This document shows positions 5,591 to 60,631 of a DNA stretch of 64,000 nucleotides, piece by piece. Each line of letters opens with the position of its first letter. Positions within the stretch are counted from its first letter, which is position 1. The notes under the pieces were generated by a model that did no database searches, had not been told where the DNA came from, and worked only from the letters and a program-made list of their open reading frames with translations. A program made the position numbers and the translations under genes. Source of the stretch: Sulfurimonas sp. HSL3-1. GTDB lineage: Bacteria; Campylobacterota; Campylobacteria; Campylobacterales; Sulfurimonadaceae. Location of the stretch: assembly GCF_039645995.1 (NCBI RefSeq), contig NZ_CP147920.1:992001-1056000 (forward strand). The letters are read 5' to 3'.

Positions 5591-6334
5591 TCAGAGTTCG
5601 AAAGCCTTTTTGAGTTTTCGGAGAGCTTTTTTTCGTGCTTCGTATAGCGCAGCGCACTCCTGGGAGGGGTGTTTGTCGCAGAAACGGTGCAGCCATGCCA
5701 GCTGGTTGGCCGCATCCTGGATGGCGCCGAAATGTTCCAGGTGTTTCTTGGCGTTTTTGATCTTGCGTTTGGCATCGACGAGGCCGGCTTCGTCCAGGAA
5801 CTCCAGGACGTAGCGCGCCTGTTTGTAACGCAGACGGATCTCATGGATCTCTTCCTCTTTTGAATCCTCTCCGAGAGCCCGCCGCGCTGTTTTTGCCTTT
5901 TCGTAAATGGCCTCGCCCCGGCGAATCAGCCTCCCTTTTCGCTGGTCCAGTTTCAGGGCTTGGACATCGGCGATCAGCAGATCGATCGTTTGGGCGAAAC
6001 GCCGCGGCGTTTCGGGGGGCCACCGCTTTTTATACTGTTTTTCCCGGTAGCGGGTCAGGGCCGCATGCAGGTTCGGATAGGATTCAGAAGAGAGCGCGTC
6101 CAGAAAGACATCGGTCTCGCGCAGGGGATTGGTGACTTTGAGCATCGATTTGGCAATAGCGTCCGGGGCGTAAAGATGATGGGTGTAAGCCGAAAGGACG
6201 GAGCGGAACCGTCGAAGGGCGACCCGAAAGCGGTGCAGGGCCTCGATATCGGCAGCAGGACCGACAAGGGGGAGCTGCTCGCTGGCGGTTTGGAGCTGCC
6301 GGATCAGGTACGATTTTAAAAGCGCGCTTTCCAT
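5591..6334 (-). CDS. CHAD domain protein
   Basis: The 247-residue protein is almost entirely a CHAD domain, an alpha-helical fold with conserved histidines and basic residues that binds inorganic polyphosphate. Visible signatures are HRFRVALRRFRSVL near residue 30 and a second half with IHEIRLRYKQARYVLEFL near residue 165, matching the internal duplication of the fold. It lacks the CYTH domain often fused in this family; a separate CYTH protein is encoded at 10611-11084. It probably associates with polyphosphate granules. A -10 box lies 8 bases before the ATG and no ribosome binding site is seen. Confidence 0.85.
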   Translation of the reverse strand: MESALLKSYLIRQLQTASEQLPLVGPAADIEALHRFRVALRRFRSVLSAYTHHLYAPDAIAKSMLKVTNPLRETDVFLDALSSESYPNLHAALTRYREKQYKKRWPPETPRRFAQTIDLLIADVQALKLDQRKGRLIRRGEAIYEKAKTARRALGEDSKEEEIHEIRLRYKQARYVLEFLDEAGLVDAKRKIKNAKKHLEHFGAIQDAANQLAWLHRFCDKHPSQECAALYEARKKALRKLKKAFEL

Positions 6335-6342
6335 GGTGGATT

Positions 6343-6348
6343 ATTATA
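6343..6348 (-). promoter_or_regulatory. -10 box for the CHAD gene, predicted leaderless
   Basis: TATAAT on the minus strand ends 8 bases before the ATG at 6334. Transcription would begin at or within one or two bases of the start codon, and the region contains no Shine-Dalgarno sequence. Confidence 0.6.
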
Positions 6349-10010: not shown

Positions 10011-10627
10011 TCGCCGCCGCCGTCAAGAAAATGATCCGCTTCCTCTTCGTGGGGGCGCTCTCATTCTTTCCGCTGGTGGTGGTGCTCCTCGTTGTCAATT
10101 TCCTTAAAAACATCGGGCTCAGCGCCTATTTCCGCCTCAATACCCTGACCGATTCTACCGGCGCGACGGTCCTGCTGATGCTCGGGGTGTTGTCGGCGCT
10201 GATCCTGCTGGGATGGACCATCGAACGCTACGGCCGCTCCGTTCTGCTCTCGGCGATCGACCGGATGTTCGAGAAAATCCCCGCGGTCAATACGATCTAC
10301 TCCGTTTCCCGGAAAATCTCCAATATGCTCACCGGCAAGGATGATTCGGGCAAGAAAGAGGTTGTGCTCGTCGAATACCCCAAAGACGGCGTCTGGGTGC
10401 CGGCCTATGTCCTCAACCGCCATAACGGTATCTGCGTCCTCTTCGTGCCGACGTCGCCGAACCCCACCAGCGGCTACACGGTTCTGGTCAAGGATGAGCT
10501 CACCGTTCCGGTATCGCTGACATTGGAGGAGGCCTCCTCCTTTATTATCAGCATGGGGGCGGACTTTGTCAAACGCGACGAAGTGACGGATAAGATTCAC
10601 GGGGCGGGCGTTACGCCTCGTTCTTGA
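10007..10627 (+). CDS. DUF502 family inner-membrane protein
   Basis: The start overlaps the YceI-like stop by 4 bp. The 206-residue protein has two N-terminal membrane helices (about residues 10-32 and 48-70) followed by the DUF502 signature region: VNTIYSVSRKISNMLTG, then VVLVEYPKDGVWVPAYVL and FVPTSPNPTSGYTVLV. DUF502 proteins are widespread inner-membrane proteins of unknown biochemical role, related to plant COV1. Co-translation with a YceI-like lipid-binding protein suggests a role at the membrane/periplasm interface. The 3' end overlaps the CYTH gene on the other strand by 17 bases. Confidence 0.85.
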   Translation: MIAAAVKKMIRFLFVGALSFFPLVVVLLVVNFLKNIGLSAYFRLNTLTDSTGATVLLMLGVLSALILLGWTIERYGRSVLLSAIDRMFEKIPAVNTIYSVSRKISNMLTGKDDSGKKEVVLVEYPKDGVWVPAYVLNRHNGICVLFVPTSPNPTSGYTVLVKDELTVPVSLTLEEASSFIISMGADFVKRDEVTDKIHGAGVTPRS

Positions 10628-11084
10628 AGCGCACGTAGGGGAGGGTGCGCAGGTTGGAGTTGTAGTAGCGCCTGTCGTCGGTGACCTCGCGGGTCACCCA
10701 GGGCGGCATCGCGAAGGTCTCGTCCGCGCTTTCCAGTTCGATCTCTGCCAGATAGAGCCCCGCGTTTTCCCCCTCGAAGATATCGACCTCCCACAGATGC
10801 CCCTCGTAGAGGATCTCGTAGCGTTTTTTTTCGATCAGCGGCGCGGGACAGAGTTCTTGCAGCATCGCGAAGGCATCATCAACGGGGACCTCGTATTCGA
10901 ATTCGCTCCGAACGATGCCCTCTCTTTTGCCTTTGAGGGTCAGGAACGCTTTCGCGTTCTTTGTACGAACCCTGACGGTCACACCTTCGGCGGGGATGTA
11001 CCCTTGTGTGATGACAAAGGGTGCGGGCAGCTTGGGAAGCAGCGCGGGGTCGATGAGAAATTTGCGTTCGATTTCGATGGCCAT
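10611..11084 (-). CDS. CYTH domain protein (triphosphatase-like)
   Basis: 157 residues, one CYTH domain. The hallmark EIERKFLI is at residues 3-10, followed by alternating acidic/basic strands (VRVRTKNAKAFLTLKG, EFEYEVPVDDAFAM, KKRYEILYEGHLWEVDIFEG, LAEIELES) that form the triphosphate tunnel. Members hydrolyse inorganic triphosphate or thiamine triphosphate with Mg2+; several bacterial ones are triphosphatases. A stand-alone CHAD gene sits 4.3 kb away, so the CYTH-CHAD fusion common elsewhere is split here. TACAAT ends 5 bases before ATG with no ribosome binding site, so the mRNA is probably leaderless. Confidence 0.85.
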   Translation of the reverse strand: MAIEIERKFLIDPALLPKLPAPFVITQGYIPAEGVTVRVRTKNAKAFLTLKGKREGIVRSEFEYEVPVDDAFAMLQELCPAPLIEKKRYEILYEGHLWEVDIFEGENAGLYLAEIELESADETFAMPPWVTREVTDDRRYYNSNLRTLPYVRFKNEA

Positions 11085-11089
11085 GAAGT

Positions 11090-11095
11090 ATTGTA
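11090..11095 (-). promoter_or_regulatory. -10 box for the CYTH gene, predicted leaderless
   Basis: TACAAT on the minus strand is separated from the ATG at 11084 by only 5 bases, so the transcript would start at about the A of the start codon. Confidence 0.6.
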
Positions 11096-11974: not shown

Positions 11975-11980
11975 TACACT
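11975..11980 (+). promoter_or_regulatory. -10-like box of the cti gene, predicted leaderless
   Basis: TACACT ends 8 bases before the ATG at 11989. No Shine-Dalgarno sequence is present, and the in-frame lipoprotein signal begins right at this ATG. Confidence 0.45.
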
Positions 11981-11988
11981 TACACCTG

Positions 11989-14388
11989 ATGAAACCGTTA
12001 CTCTACTCTTCGATCATCCTGCTGTTTTTGGCGTTGGGCGGCTGTGCCCCGAAACCCGTTCCCCCTGTTGCCGTTGCCGTTTCAGAGCGCACCATCGACT
12101 ACACCAAAGAGGTTCGCCCCATTCTTGACCGCCGCTGCGTGGTCTGTCATTCGTGTTACAACGCCCCCTGCCAGCTGAAACTCAGCGCCTTCGAAGGGCT
12201 TGCACGCGGAGCGACGAAGATGGCCGTTTACGACGCCGAAAGGCTCGGCGCCGCCCATCCGACCCGCCTCTTCGTCGATGCAGACACTGCCGATCAGTGG
12301 CACGACAGGTACGACTTCTACTCGGTGACGGCCAACGCCGCTTCGGGCCGTTTCAACGACTCTACGCTGATCAGCCTGCTGGAGGCCAAGCGGCAACTGC
12401 CCCATAGCGCCGGGGAGTACCGGCCGGAATCCGACGAACTCACCTGTCCGAAGGACCATGACGAACTTGAAGAGTACCTGGATGAATACCCGGAGCGCGG
12501 GATGCCCTACGGCTTCCCACCACTGACGAATGCAGAGATGACGACGCTGGCCCAGTGGGCGCAGCAGGGCGCCAAGGGACCGGGCAGCGCGGAGCAGCGG
12601 CGGATGAACGCCCCCGCGGAAACCGACAGGAGCGCGCTGGAAACCTGGGAACGTTTCCTGAACATGCCGGATGCCAAACACGCCATGACGGCCCGTTACC
12701 TCTATGAACACCTCTACCTGGCCCATATCCGTTTCGCGACCCCGGACGGCGCTTTTTATGAACTGGTGCGCTCCAAAACGGCTGCGCCGGCTGCGATCAA
12801 GATCATTCCGACGATAAGGCCCTACGACGATCCGGGCAAGGGTGCGTTTTATTACCGGTTCCGCCGGATCACATCGACGCTGGTACACAAAACGCACATG
12901 GTGTTTACGCTCGATGCGGCCCAACTGGCACGCGTCGAAAAGCATTTTATCGAGGCCCCCTGGAACGAGACGCCGCACCTGATGGGGTACGGGGCGAAAC
13001 AGTCGGCCAACCCCTTCGCGACCTTCGCCCAGATCCCCGCCGCGGCGCGCTACGCCTTTTTGCTTGACAACAGCGAATACATCGTCCGCACCTTTATCCG
13101 CGGTCCGGTCTGCAAGGGGCAGGTGGCGCTGAACGTGATCAACGATCATTTCTGGGTCATGTTCCTCGACCCCAAATATGATTTGAGTCTGCACTACCCG
13201 AACCTGCTGCGCTTCAACGAGAAACAGCTCTCCGTGCCGGACGAACAGGGGAGCGATTTCCCGGCGTACCGCTTCCTCAGCGACAAGTACATCAAACGCG
13301 CCGTCGATTACTATAAAGCCCGGGCGGATTTCTATTCGCTCATCTATACGGAAGGGCTGGGATATGACGCGATCTGGAAGGGAGAAGAGGCCGACGACGC
13401 GCCGCTGCTCACGGTCTATCGCCACTTCGACAGCGCCTCGGTCCATAAAGGAGCCCTTGGGGACCTGCCCAAAACCCTCTGGGTCATCGACTATCCGCTT
13501 TTCGAGCGCATCTACTACGCCCTGGTCGCGGGGTTCGACGTCTTCGGCAATGTCGGGCACCAGACCAACGTCCGCCGCTATATGGACCGGCTGCGCGTGG
13601 AGGGGGAGAGCAACTACATCGACTTTATGCCTGCGGATGTCCGTCACAAGCTCTTCGACGCGTGGAACAAAAATCTCAACCTTCTCGTAGAGAACAAGCT
13701 CTTCTACCGTCCGGCGCGCATGCCTACGGCCGTTGCTTTCAAAACAAACGATCCCAAACGCGAATTCGTCGAGCATATTGTCGATCACGAGCTGCTCGGG
13801 GAGACGGACATCTCCTTTGACCCGGTGAACTATTTCCACGTGGGGGACGCGCATCCGCCGCTCCCCGAGCAGTACCGGACGCGCGGGGATTATATCCAGG
13901 CGTTCCGTGCCGTTTCGAAACCCGGGACGGCCTTTGTCCGTACGATCGACGGGCAGCAGTCGAACCTGGCGTATGTCCGTGTGCGCATGCCCGAGGGGGA
14001 GGAGGATATCCTCTTTTCGGTCGTCGTGAACCGTTGGCACGACAACGTCGCTTTCATGTTTGATGAGAAGGGACGTCTCGACCCTTCCAGGGACAGTGCG
14101 GATTTCATCTTTGATTTTATCGGTTCGTATCCGAACATGCTGCTCGAGCTGGATGCGGAGGAGGCTCCGGCTTTTTTCGATATGCTCGCACACTACAAGG
14201 ATACGCCCGAGTATCGCCGCCGCTTCTTTCATTTCGGCATTACCCGGGACAACCCCCGTTTCTGGGAAGCGTATGACTGGTTCCAGAAACGCTTCGAAGC
14301 GATGCACCCCGTTGACGCAGGGCTGTTCGACCTGAACCGCTACTACTACCTTTCGCGCTCCCACGGGAAAAAAGAGGGGGAAGAGTAA
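11989..14388 (+). CDS. cti: Periplasmic fatty-acid cis/trans isomerase
   Basis: 799 residues. The N-terminus is a lipoprotein-type signal (LALGGC, Cys19) and the mature protein opens with YTKEVRPILDRRCVVCH, where C50-x-x-C53-H54 is a heme c attachment site. Cti enzymes are periplasmic heme c proteins that convert cis-unsaturated acyl chains of phospholipids to trans, rapidly stiffening the membrane under solvent or heat shock. Length matches the family (about 750-800). The heme site, overall length and lipid anchor are seen; isomerase activity is inferred from family. It is a single-gene unit divergent from the DUF4136 lipoprotein, with a -10 box placed for a leaderless mRNA. Confidence 0.85.
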   Translation: MKPLLYSSIILLFLALGGCAPKPVPPVAVAVSERTIDYTKEVRPILDRRCVVCHSCYNAPCQLKLSAFEGLARGATKMAVYDAERLGAAHPTRLFVDADTADQWHDRYDFYSVTANAASGRFNDSTLISLLEAKRQLPHSAGEYRPESDELTCPKDHDELEEYLDEYPERGMPYGFPPLTNAEMTTLAQWAQQGAKGPGSAEQRRMNAPAETDRSALETWERFLNMPDAKHAMTARYLYEHLYLAHIRFATPDGAFYELVRSKTAAPAAIKIIPTIRPYDDPGKGAFYYRFRRITSTLVHKTHMVFTLDAAQLARVEKHFIEAPWNETPHLMGYGAKQSANPFATFAQIPAAARYAFLLDNSEYIVRTFIRGPVCKGQVALNVINDHFWVMFLDPKYDLSLHYPNLLRFNEKQLSVPDEQGSDFPAYRFLSDKYIKRAVDYYKARADFYSLIYTEGLGYDAIWKGEEADDAPLLTVYRHFDSASVHKGALGDLPKTLWVIDYPLFERIYYALVAGFDVFGNVGHQTNVRRYMDRLRVEGESNYIDFMPADVRHKLFDAWNKNLNLLVENKLFYRPARMPTAVAFKTNDPKREFVEHIVDHELLGETDISFDPVNYFHVGDAHPPLPEQYRTRGDYIQAFRAVSKPGTAFVRTIDGQQSNLAYVRVRMPEGEEDILFSVVVNRWHDNVAFMFDEKGRLDPSRDSADFIFDFIGSYPNMLLELDAEEAPAFFDMLAHYKDTPEYRRRFFHFGITRDNPRFWEAYDWFQKRFEAMHPVDAGLFDLNRYYYLSRSHGKKEGEE

Positions 14389-14456: not shown

Positions 14457-14744
14457 ATGTCAAAATCGATGGTTGAGATCAAAACGCTAAAACTGGCGCA
14501 TACGCAAAACGGCACGATCAGTATCGCGCATATCGAGGAGCCTTACGGCAAACACAGCAGCCCGGTGGTCAGCATCGCCATCGCATTGGAAGGGGCATCC
14601 AGCGACTGGAAGGTCCACCTTCCCTACGAAAACATCGATGAGGTGATCAAGGGACTCCAGGAAGCGAAGGCATCCAACGAGGGGATGCCGCATCACGACA
14701 AACATACCGAAGACCTGAATGCCGACACCGGCGGCGGCGCCTAA
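14457..14744 (+). CDS. Unrecognised small soluble protein
   Basis: A 95-residue protein with a strong AAAGGAG ribosome site and no signal or membrane segments. The middle (IAHIEEPYGKHSSPVVSIAIALEGASSDWKVHLP) looks like a pair of beta strands, with a helical patch (YENIDEVIKGLQEA) after it; the tail is polar and rich in Asp, His and Gly. The family is unknown. It ends in a 4-base overlap with the convergent macro-domain gene. Confidence 0.55.
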   Translation: MSKSMVEIKTLKLAHTQNGTISIAHIEEPYGKHSSPVVSIAIALEGASSDWKVHLPYENIDEVIKGLQEAKASNEGMPHHDKHTEDLNADTGGGA

Positions 14745-15286
14745 GAGCGCTCCGCTCCGAAGATGCGCTGCATCAGCATATAGTCGCCTTCGGAGTGCGC
14801 ATACAGTAATACCTCACACTCAAAATCTACAGCACTCCTGAAAAAATCACGATAGATCTCCAGTACACGCCGCTTGTCCAGCCCGCCGACCCCTGTGCCC
14901 ATCAGCGGCAGCGCCAGCGTGACGTTCTTGTCGTGCAGCGCGGCAAAGGAAGCCAGAGCGGTCTGAATGTTATGGAGGATGGTTGTGATCTCCCCTAGCC
15001 GCGGCAGGGCCTCCGTCGCGCCCGGGTTGTAGTCCATGACAGCGGCATGCAGCACGCTGCCGAAACGCGGGCAGCCGCCGGTGGCGACAACATCCCCTTT
15101 CTGCAGCTTTCCCGTTTCCCTTAACGCGCGGGTCATTGCGTTCTGCAGGGCCGGGCCGCAGGCGGCTGCGAACGCGCCCGAAACGCCCGAACCCAATGTC
15201 AGTACCGTATTGGACGGATTGACGATGAAATCCGATGCCGGTGCGTTCAGGAGGTTTCCTGTTCTGAGGGTTACGTGATAGGCCAT
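14741..15286 (-). CDS. Macro domain protein (ADP-ribose-binding)
   Basis: 181 residues that are almost entirely one macro domain. Signatures include LRTGNLLNAPASDFIVNPSNTVL near the N-terminus (the usual N-x-A-N position reads NPSN), GSGVSGAF, a glycine-rich stretch KGDVVATGGCP, and LALPLMGTGVGGL near residue 140. Macro domains bind ADP-ribose or remove it from proteins and nucleic acids. The substrate cannot be decided. TACAAT is 6 bases from the ATG with no ribosome site, so the message is likely leaderless. Confidence 0.85.
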   Translation of the reverse strand: MAYHVTLRTGNLLNAPASDFIVNPSNTVLTLGSGVSGAFAAACGPALQNAMTRALRETGKLQKGDVVATGGCPRFGSVLHAAVMDYNPGATEALPRLGEITTILHNIQTALASFAALHDKNVTLALPLMGTGVGGLDKRRVLEIYRDFFRSAVDFECEVLLYAHSEGDYMLMQRIFGAERS

Positions 15287-15292
15287 GAAGAC

Positions 15293-15298
15293 ATTGTA
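15293..15298 (-). promoter_or_regulatory. -10 box for the macro-domain gene, predicted leaderless
   Basis: TACAAT on the minus strand ends 6 bases before the ATG at 15286, and no Shine-Dalgarno site is visible. Confidence 0.55.
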
Positions 15299-24069: not shown

Positions 24070-26541
24070 TCATCCCTTTTTGATTTGATCCCGTACAAAG
24101 TATTTGGCGACCAATGCTCCCGCCGTCATCGGTTTGTCAAAATAGTAGCCCTGGAAAATATCGCATTTCATTCTCTTGAGCAGCTGTACCTGGCCTTCCT
24201 TCTCGACGCCTTCGATCACGACTTTCATCCCCAGGGCATGCCCGAGTTCGGTCATGGTCTTGACGATCACGGCTGTTTTGGCGTTGAATTCGATTTCGTC
24301 GATAAAACTCTTGTCGATTTTAATGGTATCGACCTGGAAGGATTGGAGGTAGGTAAAGGTGGAGTAACCCGTCCCGAAGTCGTCGATGGCGATCTTGATG
24401 CCCGCATCGCATAGCGACTTGATGGTTTCGATGTTATCGGTAGAGCTTTCGACGATGATCCTTTCTGTCAATTCGAGTTCGAGGAGGTCTGGATTGAGAT
24501 TGTACTCGGAGAAAAGGTCCAGAAGGTCCCGGATGAAGTAGGTGTCGTTGATATCGACTGCCGTGACGTTGACGGCGGCAAAGATGCCGTCCCATCCAAT
24601 CCGCTGCCACTGTTTGAGCGCCTTGCAGGACTCCTCAAGGACCCAATGCGTGATCCGCAGAATCAGCCCGTTCTGTTCGGCAATGCCGATGAAGGTGTCG
24701 GGGGTGAGTATCCCCCGTTTGGGGTGACGCCACCGCAGCAGGACTTCGACGCCGGCGAGACTGTTGTCTGTGGCACTGATCTTCGGCTGAAACAGCAGGA
24801 AAAACTCGTTGTTATCCAGGGCCTCGAAAAGATCGTTGTGGAGCTTCAGACGTTCGATGGCCATGTTGTCCAAGACGGGGTTGAAGAAATAGAATCGGTT
24901 CTTGCCGAGCTCCTTTGCCTTGTGCAGCGCCGTGTCGCTGTTTTTCATCAGGGTGTCGTAGTCATCCCCGTCATTGGGATAGAGCGCTATTCCCACGCTG
25001 GCCGTAATATGGATGATGTGGTTGTCGAGGTTAAAGGGTTTGCGGATCTGGACAAGAAGCTGGTCGACGATATGCGTCAGGCTCTCCGTCGACTGGATCC
25101 GTTCGAGGATGATGAGAAACTCGTCCTGCCCCATGCGCAAAATGGTGTCAAAACGCCGGAGATGGGCTTTGAGACGGCCACTGAGCTGCATCAGCAGCTG
25201 GTCGCCGACCTTGTGGGTCATCGAGTCGTTGATGTTCTTGAAGTCATCGATGTCGATGGAGAGGACGGCAAAGGGGAGTTTGTCTTTTTTCGCATAGCTC
25301 ATGGACGATGCGAAAATACGCTGCAGGGAGTGACGGTTCCCGATGCCCGTCAGCTGGTCGATGTAGAGCAGCGACTGCAGCTGGTCCCCCAGGGCGTAAG
25401 AGAGGACGATGATTTTGAGCAGTACCCCGAACTGCTGGGAGTGCAGGATAAACCAGGTCGACGGCAGTAGACCGAACTTATGCAGTGCCAGCAGGGTGGA
25501 ACCGGCGAAAAAGAGACTCCAGGCACCAAGGTAGAAACGGGCCCGTCTTTTATTGTGCTTCTGGATGACAAAACCGGCGGAGAGCAGTATGATGGGCGTA
25601 ATAGCCGCCAGGAGGGTCGTCAGTTTGACCGTCAGGTAGTAGATGTCGAAAAAACTCATGATCATGGGGACGAGGTTGATGATGATGATGACGTTCAAGA
25701 CGGAGTGCAGTTTCGGCGTATAGAGTTCCGTTTCCAAAAAGCGCTGGCCGAAAAGGATGGCCGACAGGATCGTAAGATCGACAAAGAAGGGGACGCCTTC
25801 GTTGTACAGCCAGGGGTGATCGGGGAAAAGCAGCATAGGCGTGAAGCCGTCGAAAGAGAGCTGCATCATCGTATAAAAGACGATAAAGCCGACATAATAG
25901 AGATAGATGGCTCTGCGGAAGATCAGGAAGAAAATAAAGTTGTAGAGCGACAAAATAATGAGGATGCCGTAAAAAATGCCGTAAAAGAGGAAGCGTCTCT
26001 GGTCGGCATCCTGCAGGGCATCCGGGTCATTGATGGTGATGGGGAGATCGATCGACGATTGGGAACGGATCTTCCAGACCAGTGTCGTGGTCTTGCCCGG
26101 AAGCATCGTGATCGGGAAACGAAACGTCAGGCTCGACAAGGGACGTGAAGCGACGGGGCGCTTGTCCCCGCTGGCAAAATGAGCGATGACTTTTTTGTTT
26201 TCGATCACGTAGAGATCGACATAATCGAGCAGGGGGTTTTCCAGGTCGACGATCCATGCATTCTCGGTATGGGAGGTGTTCTTCAGTGTCGAACGCAGCC
26301 AGATGGTGTCATCGACATAACCGAAGGGGAGCTGGGCCTTGTCAACGGTGTTGCAGATTGCCGGGCTGCTGCCCTCCAAAAACATGTCGACGTTCAGCAT
26401 ATTCAGATGGTCCATGCAGAGCAGGACAGAGTCGGAGAGATCATACTGTTTTCCGCTGGAAGTGACATTGATGACAGGTTCGGCGGAGAGGGGATTCAAA
26501 GTGAGAAAAATCAGAATAAAAATATGAAAAACCGTTTGCAT
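24070..26541 (-). CDS. 7TMR-DISM membrane sensor with GGDEF and EAL domains
   Basis: Start taken at 26541, where a signal peptide begins (MQTVFHIFILIFLTLNPLSA); 823 residues. Order: periplasmic 7TMR-DISMED2-type sensor domain (~30-165, with LPFGYVDDTIWLRSTLKN), seven membrane spans (~180-385), GGDEF domain (~400-560) and EAL domain (~575-815). The GGDEF signature is RMGQDEF, with Gln replacing the second Gly, so cyclase activity is questionable. The EAL keeps EVLLRW, NVTAVD, LELTERI, DDFGTGYS, IKIDKSFI, VIEGVE and FQGYYF, so phosphodiesterase activity is expected. It ends one base before the start of the Tle1-like gene. It likely senses a carbohydrate or other ligand in the periplasm. Confidence 0.85.
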   Translation of the reverse strand: MQTVFHIFILIFLTLNPLSAEPVINVTSSGKQYDLSDSVLLCMDHLNMLNVDMFLEGSSPAICNTVDKAQLPFGYVDDTIWLRSTLKNTSHTENAWIVDLENPLLDYVDLYVIENKKVIAHFASGDKRPVASRPLSSLTFRFPITMLPGKTTTLVWKIRSQSSIDLPITINDPDALQDADQRRFLFYGIFYGILIILSLYNFIFFLIFRRAIYLYYVGFIVFYTMMQLSFDGFTPMLLFPDHPWLYNEGVPFFVDLTILSAILFGQRFLETELYTPKLHSVLNVIIIINLVPMIMSFFDIYYLTVKLTTLLAAITPIILLSAGFVIQKHNKRRARFYLGAWSLFFAGSTLLALHKFGLLPSTWFILHSQQFGVLLKIIVLSYALGDQLQSLLYIDQLTGIGNRHSLQRIFASSMSYAKKDKLPFAVLSIDIDDFKNINDSMTHKVGDQLLMQLSGRLKAHLRRFDTILRMGQDEFLIILERIQSTESLTHIVDQLLVQIRKPFNLDNHIIHITASVGIALYPNDGDDYDTLMKNSDTALHKAKELGKNRFYFFNPVLDNMAIERLKLHNDLFEALDNNEFFLLFQPKISATDNSLAGVEVLLRWRHPKRGILTPDTFIGIAEQNGLILRITHWVLEESCKALKQWQRIGWDGIFAAVNVTAVDINDTYFIRDLLDLFSEYNLNPDLLELELTERIIVESSTDNIETIKSLCDAGIKIAIDDFGTGYSTFTYLQSFQVDTIKIDKSFIDEIEFNAKTAVIVKTMTELGHALGMKVVIEGVEKEGQVQLLKRMKCDIFQGYYFDKPMTAGALVAKYFVRDQIKKG

Positions 26542-26646
26542 GGGTTCATTATACTCCATAGGCATCTAATTTGTATTAATAACGTGATAAATGATTTTGC
26601 GCTTGTTAGTTGAACTGGTACAATTAGTTTTTTGAAAAGGATGAAT

Positions 26647-57761: not shown

Positions 57762-59141
57762 TTAGCGGCTGCCCGAAACCCGGTAGAGATGGTAGGTCTT
57801 GGTACGTTTCAGGCCCCGCTGGACAGTGAGGGTATCGAGCAGCGTGACGTGCTCAAAGCGTTCCGCGAGGACCGCCGCTTTCTCCTCAGGGGCAAGGTAG
57901 AGACCCTCGCGGTAGGGGGCGCCGTCGTCCCACATGTCGTATTGGCTGTAGCGTGTCGGCGTCGGGATACGCACCGGGGCGTGGTCAGGCGTGTAGTAGG
58001 TGACAAGGGCCGCGATAGCCAGGTGGTTGGCGTAGAGGGCGTCATCCGCTTTTCGGTGGCGTTCGAGCATGGCAACGGCCTCTTTATTGCCGTACATCCT
58101 GTCCTGCACGACCGGCAGCCAGAAAAGCAGCCCCGCGCGGGCGACGAGGCTCAGCGTCAGGGCGACGGCGAGCCCGGTATAGAAGGTCCGCTTCATCCCG
58201 CGCACCGAGAGGATGTAGGCGGTCAGCACCGTCGCGCTGATATAGGCGGGGGCGGTATAGTTGAGTTCGATATGCGTGTGCAGCGATTTATAGAGGAAAA
58301 AGAGCAGGGGGGTGACGGTCATCAAGGCGAGAAAAAAGAGAACGTCGTTTTTGGCGAAGAGCTTCTCCTTTCCCAGGAAGTAAAAGAGCACGCCGGCAAA
58401 GACCGGGGTGAAAACGGCGAACTGCGATCCGATCAGTTCCGTCGCCCAGTTCCACATAATACGCTGCTTCTCCCCGCCGTGGTGCAGCTGGAAGAGGAGG
58501 CTGATCCAGTCATGGGCGTAGTTCCACCAGAGCATCGGCGCGACAACGAGGAGGGCGATGCCGACGGCCATCCAGGTCCGCCATGAGAGGAACAGGTCCC
58601 GGCGGCGCAGCAGCATGAAGAGCAGTAGTGCCATCAGGTAGAGGACCGACGTATATTTGCTCAGCATCATCGCCCCGATGAAGAGCCCCGTCAGTACAAA
58701 ATCCAATGTCCGCCCTCGGGTAATGACACGGTAGGTCGACCAGAGCGCCAGGGACCAGAAAAGGATCAGCGGCGAATCGGTCGTCATGATCGTATAGCCC
58801 GCATGCACCAGGACGACGGAGGTGAAGATGAGGACCCCCCAGAGCCCCGTCCGGGCATCGCGCAGCTCCTCCAGCAGTCGGAAGACAACCCACCCGGCGA
58901 CGCTCATCGCCAGGACGTTGCCCAGCCGTACGCCCCATTCAGCTTCGCTCACAAGGTCGGTGAGGGCGATGAGGAAGGCGATCATCGGGGGGTGGTCGTA
59001 GTAGCCTGATTGCAGGTGGTGGCTCCAGAGCCAGTAGTAGGCCTCGTCGCCGTGCAGGGGCACGAAGGCGTTGTACACTGTGGCGAAAAGGCCCGAGAAA
59101 AGCAGGATGAGCAGGGCGGTTTGGCGATAGGTTCGGATCAT
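57762..59141 (-). CDS. GT39 family glycosyltransferase, second copy
   Basis: The ATG at 59141 is preferred because the TATAAT box overlaps the earlier ATG at 59162. 459 residues, 10-11 membrane helices. Motifs GDEAYYWLWSHHLQSGYYDHPPM near residue 30 match the first GT39 gene at 54104, showing paralogy. It is the first gene of the minus-strand envelope block, 54 bases from the flippase-like gene. The sugar donor is expected to be polyprenyl-phosphate-linked; the acceptor is unknown. Confidence 0.8.
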   Translation of the reverse strand: MIRTYRQTALLILLFSGLFATVYNAFVPLHGDEAYYWLWSHHLQSGYYDHPPMIAFLIALTDLVSEAEWGVRLGNVLAMSVAGWVVFRLLEELRDARTGLWGVLIFTSVVLVHAGYTIMTTDSPLILFWSLALWSTYRVITRGRTLDFVLTGLFIGAMMLSKYTSVLYLMALLLFMLLRRRDLFLSWRTWMAVGIALLVVAPMLWWNYAHDWISLLFQLHHGGEKQRIMWNWATELIGSQFAVFTPVFAGVLFYFLGKEKLFAKNDVLFFLALMTVTPLLFFLYKSLHTHIELNYTAPAYISATVLTAYILSVRGMKRTFYTGLAVALTLSLVARAGLLFWLPVVQDRMYGNKEAVAMLERHRKADDALYANHLAIAALVTYYTPDHAPVRIPTPTRYSQYDMWDDGAPYREGLYLAPEEKAAVLAERFEHVTLLDTLTVQRGLKRTKTYHLYRVSGSR

Positions 59142-59160
59142 GGGCGGCTTTTTGGGTGCC

Positions 59161-59166
59161 ATTATA
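59161..59166 (-). promoter_or_regulatory. -10 box of the minus-strand envelope block
   Basis: TATAAT on the minus strand lies 19 bases before the ATG at 59141 and would start a transcript running from the GT39 gene toward truA. Confidence 0.5.
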
Positions 59167-59186: not shown

Positions 59187-59192
59187 TATAAT
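59187..59192 (+). promoter_or_regulatory. -10 box of first LpxF-like gene, predicted leaderless
   Basis: TATAAT ends 7 bases before the ATG at 59200. The in-frame ATG at 59191 is part of the -10 box and is rejected. It is 20 bases from the divergent -10 box of the GT39 gene, so polymerases would compete. Confidence 0.6.
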
Positions 59193-59199
59193 GCGGACT

Positions 59200-59880
59200 A
59201 TGAATAAGAAGATACTCTGCATTCCGGCGGCCGCGTGGGGCGCGATGGCCGTCACCGCACTGCTCCTTTACTTTTTCCCGCAGATCGACATTGCCGTCAG
59301 CAGCCTGTTCTATACCCCCGGTGAGGGGTTCGTGCAGGGGGGCACCCTCTGGGAACGCTTCGTCTACCAGTCCGTGGGGGTAGTCCTCGCTATGGTCTAT
59401 GTCGCGGCACTGCTGCTGTGGCTCTATAACCGCATCAGTGGGCGGGCGCTGCTGGCATTGAGCGGGAAGAAGCTTCTTTATATACTGCTGGTAGCGGCAC
59501 TGGGAAGCGGCATCTTCGTCAACCTGGTGCTCAAGCAGAACTGGGGCCGTCCCCGTCCGGACCAGACGACGCTTTTCGGCAGCGACCGCCAGTTCACCCC
59601 GGCCTTCGTGATGAGCGATCAGCGGGGAAAATCCTTCAGCAGCGGACACACCTCCGGGGCATTCGCCCTGCTGGCGCTGATTTTCCTGGCGCGGCGGCAC
59701 CGCAAAACGGTTGCGTTAGCGGTCATCGCCTACGGTACGCTGGTTTCGCTGGCGCGCATCGCTGCGGGCGGCCACTTTTTCAGCGACGTGCTCGTTTCTA
59801 TTATGATCATGTACATCGTCTCCGGGGTGCTCTACGCGCGCTTCTTCGGATGCGATACTCTCTCCGCCGGACGGGAATAG
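59200..59880 (+). CDS. LpxF-like PAP2 phosphatase, first tandem copy
   Basis: 226 residues with six membrane helices. Start is the ATG just after TATAAT. Motif 1 is KQNWGRPRP near residue 121, motif 2 SFSSGHTSG near 145-154, motif 3 ARIAAGGHFFSDV near 185-197. The layout FPQIDIAVSSLFYTPGEGF, then KxxWGRxRP and GGHFFSDV, resembles the Francisella LpxF lipid A 4'-phosphatase type more than PgpB. It may remove phosphate from lipid A. The paralogue directly downstream shares order and spacing, so this is a tandem duplication. Confidence 0.75.
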   Translation: MNKKILCIPAAAWGAMAVTALLLYFFPQIDIAVSSLFYTPGEGFVQGGTLWERFVYQSVGVVLAMVYVAALLLWLYNRISGRALLALSGKKLLYILLVAALGSGIFVNLVLKQNWGRPRPDQTTLFGSDRQFTPAFVMSDQRGKSFSSGHTSGAFALLALIFLARRHRKTVALAVIAYGTLVSLARIAAGGHFFSDVLVSIMIMYIVSGVLYARFFGCDTLSAGRE

Positions 59881-59950
59881 GGCTTTTCCGGCGGCCTTCT
59901 GAGCACACTTCGGTTGCAGCTGGGTAACAGGCGTAGTTCCCTTCCGCCGT

Positions 59951-59956
59951 TATAAT
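59951..59956 (+). promoter_or_regulatory. -10 box of second LpxF-like gene, predicted leaderless
   Basis: TATAAT ends 6 bases before the ATG at 59963 and no ribosome site is present. Both tandem copies thus carry the same promoter-start geometry. Confidence 0.6.
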
Positions 59957-59962
59957 GCCGCC

Positions 59963-60631
59963 ATGATCAAAGTGCTCGCAACTATCCCTCTGTGGGGATG
60001 GACGGCCATGGCCGTCCTCTCTTTGCTTTTTTTTCTTTTTCCTCAGATCGATCTTGCGGTCGCAGCGCTCTTTTATGCCGGGCCCGACGGCTTTCCTGCC
60101 GCGAAAACCCTCGCCGAACAGGTTATCTACTACTCCGTGCCCTACGGCCTGATGGCGCTCTACGTCGGCGCCGTGCTTCTTTGGCTCTTCAATACCGCAT
60201 TTGGGCGCAGCGTCTGGCGTTTCACGGGCCGGAAACTGCTCTACGTACTGCTGGTGCTCGGCATCGGTTCCGGACTCATTGTTAACGCCCTTTTCAAGGA
60301 GCACTGGGGACGGGCCCGCCCGGCGGAAACGATGGAGTTCGGTGGCAAAAAGCAGTTCTCTCCCGCCTTCGTTCCTGTTGCCGGACAGGTGGGCAACTCC
60401 TTTAGCTGCGGGCACGCGTCGGGGGCCTTCGCCCTGCTGGCCTTCGCAAAACTCTCCCGGCGCCGCCGGCTCTGGAGCGCGATTGTCCTCGGCTACGGTC
60501 TCATCGTCGGTGCGGCCCGCATGGCGGCGGGCGGCCACTTCCTCAGCGACGTGGCGGTCTCGTTCTTCATTATGTACACGGCGACGGAGCTGCTCTACGC
60601 CGTACTGTTTCCCCCGAAGGAGTCCCCATGA
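59963..60631 (+). CDS. LpxF-like PAP2 phosphatase, second tandem copy
   Basis: 222 residues, six membrane helices. FPQIDLAVAALFYAGPDGFP opens it; motif 1 KEHWGRARP near residue 112, motif 2 SFSCGHASG near 145, motif 3 ARMAAGGHFLSDV near 190. Motif 2 has Cys where the first copy has Ser. It matches the LpxF style (FKDHWGRPRP in Francisella). Two copies in tandem suggests separate positions on lipid A (for example 1 and 4') or separate lipid substrates. It overlaps the following phosphatase gene by 4 bp. Confidence 0.75.
   Translation: MIKVLATIPLWGWTAMAVLSLLFFLFPQIDLAVAALFYAGPDGFPAAKTLAEQVIYYSVPYGLMALYVGAVLLWLFNTAFGRSVWRFTGRKLLYVLLVLGIGSGLIVNALFKEHWGRARPAETMEFGGKKQFSPAFVPVAGQVGNSFSCGHASGAFALLAFAKLSRRRRLWSAIVLGYGLIVGAARMAAGGHFLSDVAVSFFIMYTATELLYAVLFPPKESP

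Follow-up and report, generated by a model that had tools for sequence, protein, structure and literature searches.

In several genes of the DNA stretch analysed here (referred to as the window; 64,000 nucleotides, positions 992001 to 1056000 of a genome consisting of a single contig of 2,499,021 bases, with a GC content of 57% in the window), a hexamer of the −10 promoter type ends only 5–8 bases before the ATG. The question raised by this locus is whether the corresponding mRNAs begin at the start codon itself, without a 5′ leader, and whether the genes concerned belong together in function. An initial annotation of the window had claimed such a box for six genes, together with the lack of a Shine-Dalgarno (SD) site, and had read the arrangement as leaderless translation marking a stress-linked set with functions in polyphosphate, ADP-ribose and membrane-lipid metabolism. 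The boxes of all six genes are present in the sequence, and a seventh gene, overlooked at that time, shows the same arrangement. The features are as follows.

5591 to 6334, minus strand: CHAD gene (PF05235); −10 box TATAAT at 6343 to 6348, minus strand, spacer of 8 bases
10611 to 11084, minus strand: CYTH gene (PF01928); −10 box TACAAT at 11090 to 11095, minus strand, spacer of 5 bases
11989 to 14388, plus strand: cti gene (PF06934); weak −10-like box TACACT at 11975 to 11980, plus strand, spacer of 8 bases
14741 to 15286, minus strand: macro-domain gene (PF01661); −10 box TACAAT at 15293 to 15298, minus strand, spacer of 6 bases
24070 to 26541, minus strand: GGDEF-EAL gene; −10 box TATAAT at 26548 to 26553, minus strand, spacer of 6 bases (contig positions 1018539 to 1018553)
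59187 to 59192, plus strand: −10 box TATAAT of LpxF-like gene 1, spacer of 7 bases to the ATG
59200 to 59880, plus strand: PAP2-family (LpxF-like) gene 1, predicted leaderless (PF01569, 78.7 bits)
59951 to 59956, plus strand: −10 box TATAAT of LpxF-like gene 2, spacer of 6 bases to the ATG
59963 to 60631, plus strand: PAP2-family (LpxF-like) gene 2, predicted leaderless (PF01569, 66.8 bits)

The CHAD, CYTH, CTI and Macro domains and the two PAP2 domains of the six genes are confirmed by Pfam. As had been claimed, none of these genes carries 4 nt of AAGGAGGT at positions −20 to −4, a result computed for five genes and judged by eye for cti. The pattern gnTAnaAT was found 5–9 bases before the start codon, at cti only with a weak box (TACACT) that fails the strict −10 criterion. 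The accompanying statement that the other window genes have normal leaders is correct only in part: an SD-like site is found in 36 of the 64 genes, five are leaderless-spaced under the strict rule, and 23, a figure obtained by subtraction, show neither feature at the called start. An Rfam scan of the window returned tRNA only.

With regard to the identity of the two PAP2 genes, their PF01569 scores (78.7 and 66.8 bits against a gathering score of 27.2) place both in the PAP2 superfamily. The best NCBIfam match of both is the LpxF lipid A 4′-phosphatase (NF045633), with which they have the PAP2 family in common; the scores of 104.7 bits (gene 1) and 104.0 bits (gene 2) lie below the equivalog cut-off of 400, and both are therefore named LpxF-like only. 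Among the matches listed, the best-scoring named PAP2 homologs are mostly from Sulfurimonas, Sulfuricurvum and Campylobacterales. The start of gene 1 is the ATG at 59200 rather than the longer open reading frame (ORF) start at 59140, and its N-terminal MNKK recurs in homologs.

The seventh predicted leaderless gene of the window encodes a c-di-GMP enzyme with GGDEF and EAL domains, as assigned by Pfam. Its box, its spacer and the ATG at 26541 are conserved in three other loci (L076, L080 and L084), and two of them (L080 and L084; same genus, 84% identity) lack the upstream ATG at 26565, with the box and spacer unchanged. Because the upstream ATG is absent in relatives, the longest ORF probably misplaces the start at 26565, the box would not be coding, and the conserved, predicted leaderless ATG is the one at 26541. 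For genome annotation, this gene illustrates how leaderless starts may be misplaced when the longest ORF or an expected SD site guides the choice.

The frequency of the arrangement in this genome was assessed with 431 genes called by our own script from 464 kb, namely the window and 20 stretches outside it that amount to 400 kb (367 called genes; 16% of the genome). Start codons were picked by coding score alone, and a hexamer was counted as −10-like when it fitted TAnnnT and differed from TAA at no more than one of its three middle positions. Across the 431 genes, such hexamers occur in 4, 12, 7 and 1 cases at spacers of 5, 6, 7 and 8 bases, are nearly absent at spacers of 9–14 (4 in all), and form a broad hump from 15 on, which fits ordinary leadered promoters. 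The genome-wide comparison of motif spacing, which the initial annotation had proposed as a check, yields a peak at 5–8: outside the window, 19 of 367 genes (5.2%) have the hexamer at these spacers compared with 3 of 367 at spacers of 10–13, from which chance may account for roughly one candidate in six. An SD-like site is found in none of the 19, compared with 217 of the 367 genes overall, and all 19 start with ATG. Additionally, the exact pattern TATAATN{5,8}ATG has 98 matches in the genome, compared with 22 for the reversed pattern and 49 for TATAATN{10,13}ATG. Extrapolation from the sample suggests roughly 100–125 leaderless-spaced genes, and the leaderless mRNAs of this genome very probably number around a hundred, the leaderless architecture being predicted for about five percent of genes and an SD-like site for more than half.

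The sequence around the predicted starts was compared for a strict set of 24 cases, with 11 of 35 candidates left out owing to a loose choice of start (including all those with TTG or GTG). The GGDEF-EAL gene is one of these 11 and was subsequently found genuine by comparison with relatives, so the strict set slightly undercounts the true cases. A pyrimidine at −1 and a purine at +1 are expected at transcription initiators, and C or T stands at −1 in 21 of the 24 strict cases compared with 156 of 333 other ATG genes (Fisher p = 9e-5). No strict case has an SD-like site, compared with 253 of 407 others (p = 2e-10); the start codon is ATG in 24/24, compared with 363/431 of all called genes; and the "gn" position before the box is G in 20 of 24. 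Relative to other ATG genes, codons 2–6 are richer in A (0.40 versus 0.30; p = 0.002) and structure at the 5′ end (first 50 bases) is weaker (−6.9 versus −9.0 kcal/mol; p = 0.024), both indirect signs bearing on the predicted leaderless translation. The surroundings of the strict cases are what would be expected if transcription began with the A of the ATG.

These observations point, with considerable confidence, to ordinary sigma70/RpoD promoters whose start site would be the A of the ATG, giving rise to mRNAs without a 5′ leader. RNA polymerase would bind the gnTAnaAT box and start transcription at the A of the ATG, some 7 bases farther downstream, with a pyrimidine at −1, and the ribosome would recognise the 5′-terminal AUG directly, without SD pairing. 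Such an arrangement would let a gene have a promoter to itself at hardly any cost in length, even where that promoter overlaps the stop codon of the preceding gene, and would tie translation to a 5′-terminal AUG. Extra promoters farther upstream could additionally yield leadered transcripts, and two of the genes have a same-strand gene close upstream, the CHAD gene starting 33 bases behind its neighbour and LpxF-like gene 2 starting 82 bases behind LpxF-like gene 1. Leaderless mRNA, as initially proposed, is thus retained as the best reading, well supported in silico by the spacing peak, the lack of SD sites, the exclusive use of ATG, the −1 pyrimidine and the conservation described below, whereas the proposed functional set is unsupported.

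It is very unlikely that the leaderless genes form a stress regulon concerned with polyphosphate, ADP-ribose and membrane lipids. The six window genes suit such a theme, and a link between leaderless mRNAs and stress responses was suggested in 2013 for Campylobacter jejuni in the available text of PMC3847290. However, Pfam assigns mixed functions to the 19 genes outside the window, among which are NFACT, MFS, SIS-CBS, MgtC/DUF4010, SDR, AraC, amidoligase, CpsB/CapC, DUF455, NnrU, SpoU methylase, ABC ATPase and CutA proteins, as well as MutY, RadC and a RecG-like helicase, with three proteins lacking a Pfam match. We take the HhH-GPD protein in this group to be MutY and the protein with DEAD and Helicase_C domains to be a RecG-like helicase. 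MutY, RadC and the RecG-like helicase would suit a stress regulon, but the remaining sampled genes are transporters, biosynthesis genes, regulators, an RNA methylase and unknowns. Moreover, the boxes are ordinary sigma70 boxes, the seventh window gene encodes a c-di-GMP enzyme, and, among the homologs compared, the macro and CYTH boxes are not conserved beyond the genus. The theme of the initial annotation stems from the genes that this window happens to contain. As a separate observation, three of the 19 genes are of the DNA-repair type (MutY, RadC and the RecG-like helicase), and the gene upstream of uvrC is also leaderless-spaced (the four loci being L007, L009, L017 and L228), so that a DNA-repair bias among leaderless-spaced genes is possible.

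Another explanation, considered highly improbable, is that the true transcripts start upstream and carry leaders, the boxes near the ATG being chance AT-rich hexamers. The 23 of 64 window genes with neither an SD site nor a close box are in keeping with it and indicate that a missing SD site by itself proves little. This explanation was rejected on the basis of the spacer control, in which 3 of 367 genes have the hexamer at 10–13 compared with 19 of 367 at 5–8, and of the conservation among homologs, in which the boxes hold at 5–8 down to about 40% protein identity.

For the LpxF-like genes, this conservation was examined in 45 homologs that reach a profile score of 260 or more, the copies of this genome and of its genus being counted in. 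A −10 box lies at 5–8 in 34 of the 45, compared with 2 of 45 at spacers of 9–12, under a rule that permits several candidate starts and hence favours box detection, the control spacings being scored by the identical rule. Among 17 lower-scoring homologs tallied, nearly all from other families, the box is found at 5–8 in one. Within the genus, the boxes of both genes are kept in four genomes (G317, G323, G191 and G339), and the single copy of a fifth (L032 in G329) has no box. A stop codon of the preceding frame (at least 80 codons) lies inside the box in 17 of the 34 boxed loci; the stop is TAA, once TGA, and the last two bases of the codon before it are TA in every case, as required for the box. 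In our own reading, the upstream frame of one of these loci (L025) is antisense, leaving about 16, and many distant homologs start right at the end of the preceding frame. In the genus of the window, the same box follows a divergent gene (LpxF-like gene 1) or LpxF-like gene 1 itself (LpxF-like gene 2). A quick tree of 83 homologs gives at least 9 changes of state compared with a shuffled mean of 27, indicating that the leaderless state is clustered, yet has been lost or regained. In four Sulfurimonas-like loci (L155:703-1992, L164, L168 and L149), a frame of about 430 codons precedes the lpxF-like gene and has its stop inside the −10 box; Pfam gave no match for the encoded protein in either of the two relatives tested.

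Two genes with a published leaderless architecture served as positive controls. According to the available text of PMC3847290, mutY is leaderless by differential RNA sequencing (dRNA-seq) in C. jejuni, and a gene upstream of uvrC is predicted to be leaderless in all epsilonproteobacteria that have it. In the present genome, mutY has TATAAT N7 ATG, and a 154-codon frame overlapping the uvrC start, identified with the published gene by its position only, has TATAAT N6 ATG; both controls thus come out as predicted, as far as their sequence goes. Among MutY orthologs (the best 30 of 77 genomes with a match, out of 101 searched, own copy counted in), a box at 5–8 is found in 23 of 30 compared with 0 of 30 at spacers of 9–12, and two more have, in our own reading, the weaker TACACT, as at cti. 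Orthologs of the remaining window genes were read within the genus, those of CHAD and cti in already fetched genomes only. The CHAD box and spacing are kept in 3/3 and the cti box in 4/4 orthologs read (with a spacer of 7 in L068), the macro box is kept in 4/4 with a readable start, and the CYTH box in 4/5, being absent in L070. One distant macro homolog (L059) has a TATAAT of its own near the ATG. In the draft same-genus genome G339, the cti start is ATA instead of ATG (L067) and the macro gene is in two pieces (L060/L064) with an in-frame TAA, which represents decay or assembly error.

That the ATG beside the box is not the start codon and that translation begins farther downstream with its own SD site is scarcely credible: the start codons were indeed computer-called, but N-terminal residues recur from the box-adjacent ATG in both LpxF-like (MNKK) and CYTH homologs, and the conserved ATG of the GGDEF-EAL gene is the leaderless one.

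Under the preferred reading of leaderless sigma70 transcripts, it may tentatively be proposed that leaderlessness itself, and not only the promoter, is under long-term selection at mutY, the lpxF-like PAP2 gene and the uvrC-upstream gene, a suggestion that we regard as somewhat doubtful. It is drawn from the position of the box, which stays 5–8 bases from the ATG even though the proteins have diverged widely, genes have been duplicated or have acquired other neighbours and, in some lineages, the box overlaps the upstream stop codon. If true, a conserved leaderless core would exist in Campylobacterota, for example keeping proteins translated when normal initiation is limited.

A high rate of leaderless-spaced genes is not common to the whole family. 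In gene samples from three other genera, the hexamer is found at 5–8 in 3/138, 4/171 and 5/165 genes, with 9, 7 and 2 cases at spacers of 10–13, which means that in two of the three genera the signal is not above the control. Exact-pattern counts over 298 genomes, noisy in AT-rich ones, were tallied for the family of the window and for a second family. TATAAT-ATG sites at 5–8 exceed those at 10–13 in 22 of 26 genomes of the window's family, and the ratio is highest, about 2.0, in the two genomes of the window's genus (2.0 in the own genome and 2.04 in G191), compared with 1.90 in G010, a median close to 1.1 and a lowest value of 0.88 in G060. In the second family (f2), the excess at 5–8 is found in only 9 of the first 20 genomes listed, and is thus not general. 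In one genus of that family (g17; G016, G292, G119 and G124), TATAAT at 5–8 reaches about half to two thirds of the count at 10–13, e.g., 41 versus 85, as if close boxes were avoided.

This kind of leaderless mRNA is already known in Campylobacterota, and its mechanism is ordinary. In the available text of PMC3847290, the leaderless sigma70 mRNAs of C. jejuni and Helicobacter pylori have in common with the present genes gnTAnaAT N5–9 ATG, an ATG start and no SD site, and mutY and the uvrC-upstream gene have the architecture in both systems. The same text reports that dRNA-seq in C. jejuni (471 primary starts) gave 19 leaders shorter than 10 nt, of which 12 start at the very first base of the start codon, and that the leaderless genes, including mutY, combine an ATG start and a TAnAaT box with the lack of a recognisable ribosome binding site; those starts were mapped, whereas the 5.2% of genes given here is predicted from sequence. 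In the part of PMC3160421 available, leaderless genes were computed from a TA-like signal, which, like the evidence used here, is a −10-like signal lying close before the start codon, and were reported in 2 of the 26 epsilonproteobacterial genomes, with an average of 2.9%, a percentage not strictly comparable to ours as thresholds differ. Leaderless mRNAs in Campylobacterota have so far been described as few and poorly conserved. The available text of PMC3847290 stresses this lack of conservation, whereas at the lpxF-like genes and mutY the predicted state persists in many genera within one family. In the available parts of the literature on leaderless mRNAs, no account of conservation throughout a family was found for lpxF-like genes or mutY, and the 2013 supplementary tables (23 genes, 42 genomes) may show mutY. 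What is unusual, then, is the frequency in this genus and the long conservation at a few genes. If the genus makes about a hundred leaderless mRNAs and genes keep this state family-wide, leaderless and leadered orthologs can be compared in probing the purpose of leaderless translation.

A minor observation concerns the other side of LpxF-like gene 1, where, in the region 59139 to 59166 (minus strand), a divergent PMT_2 membrane gene has TATAAT 19 bases before its ATG at 59141. Its predicted leader comprises about 13 bases with no obvious SD site, and its predicted promoter stands back to back with that of LpxF-like gene 1.
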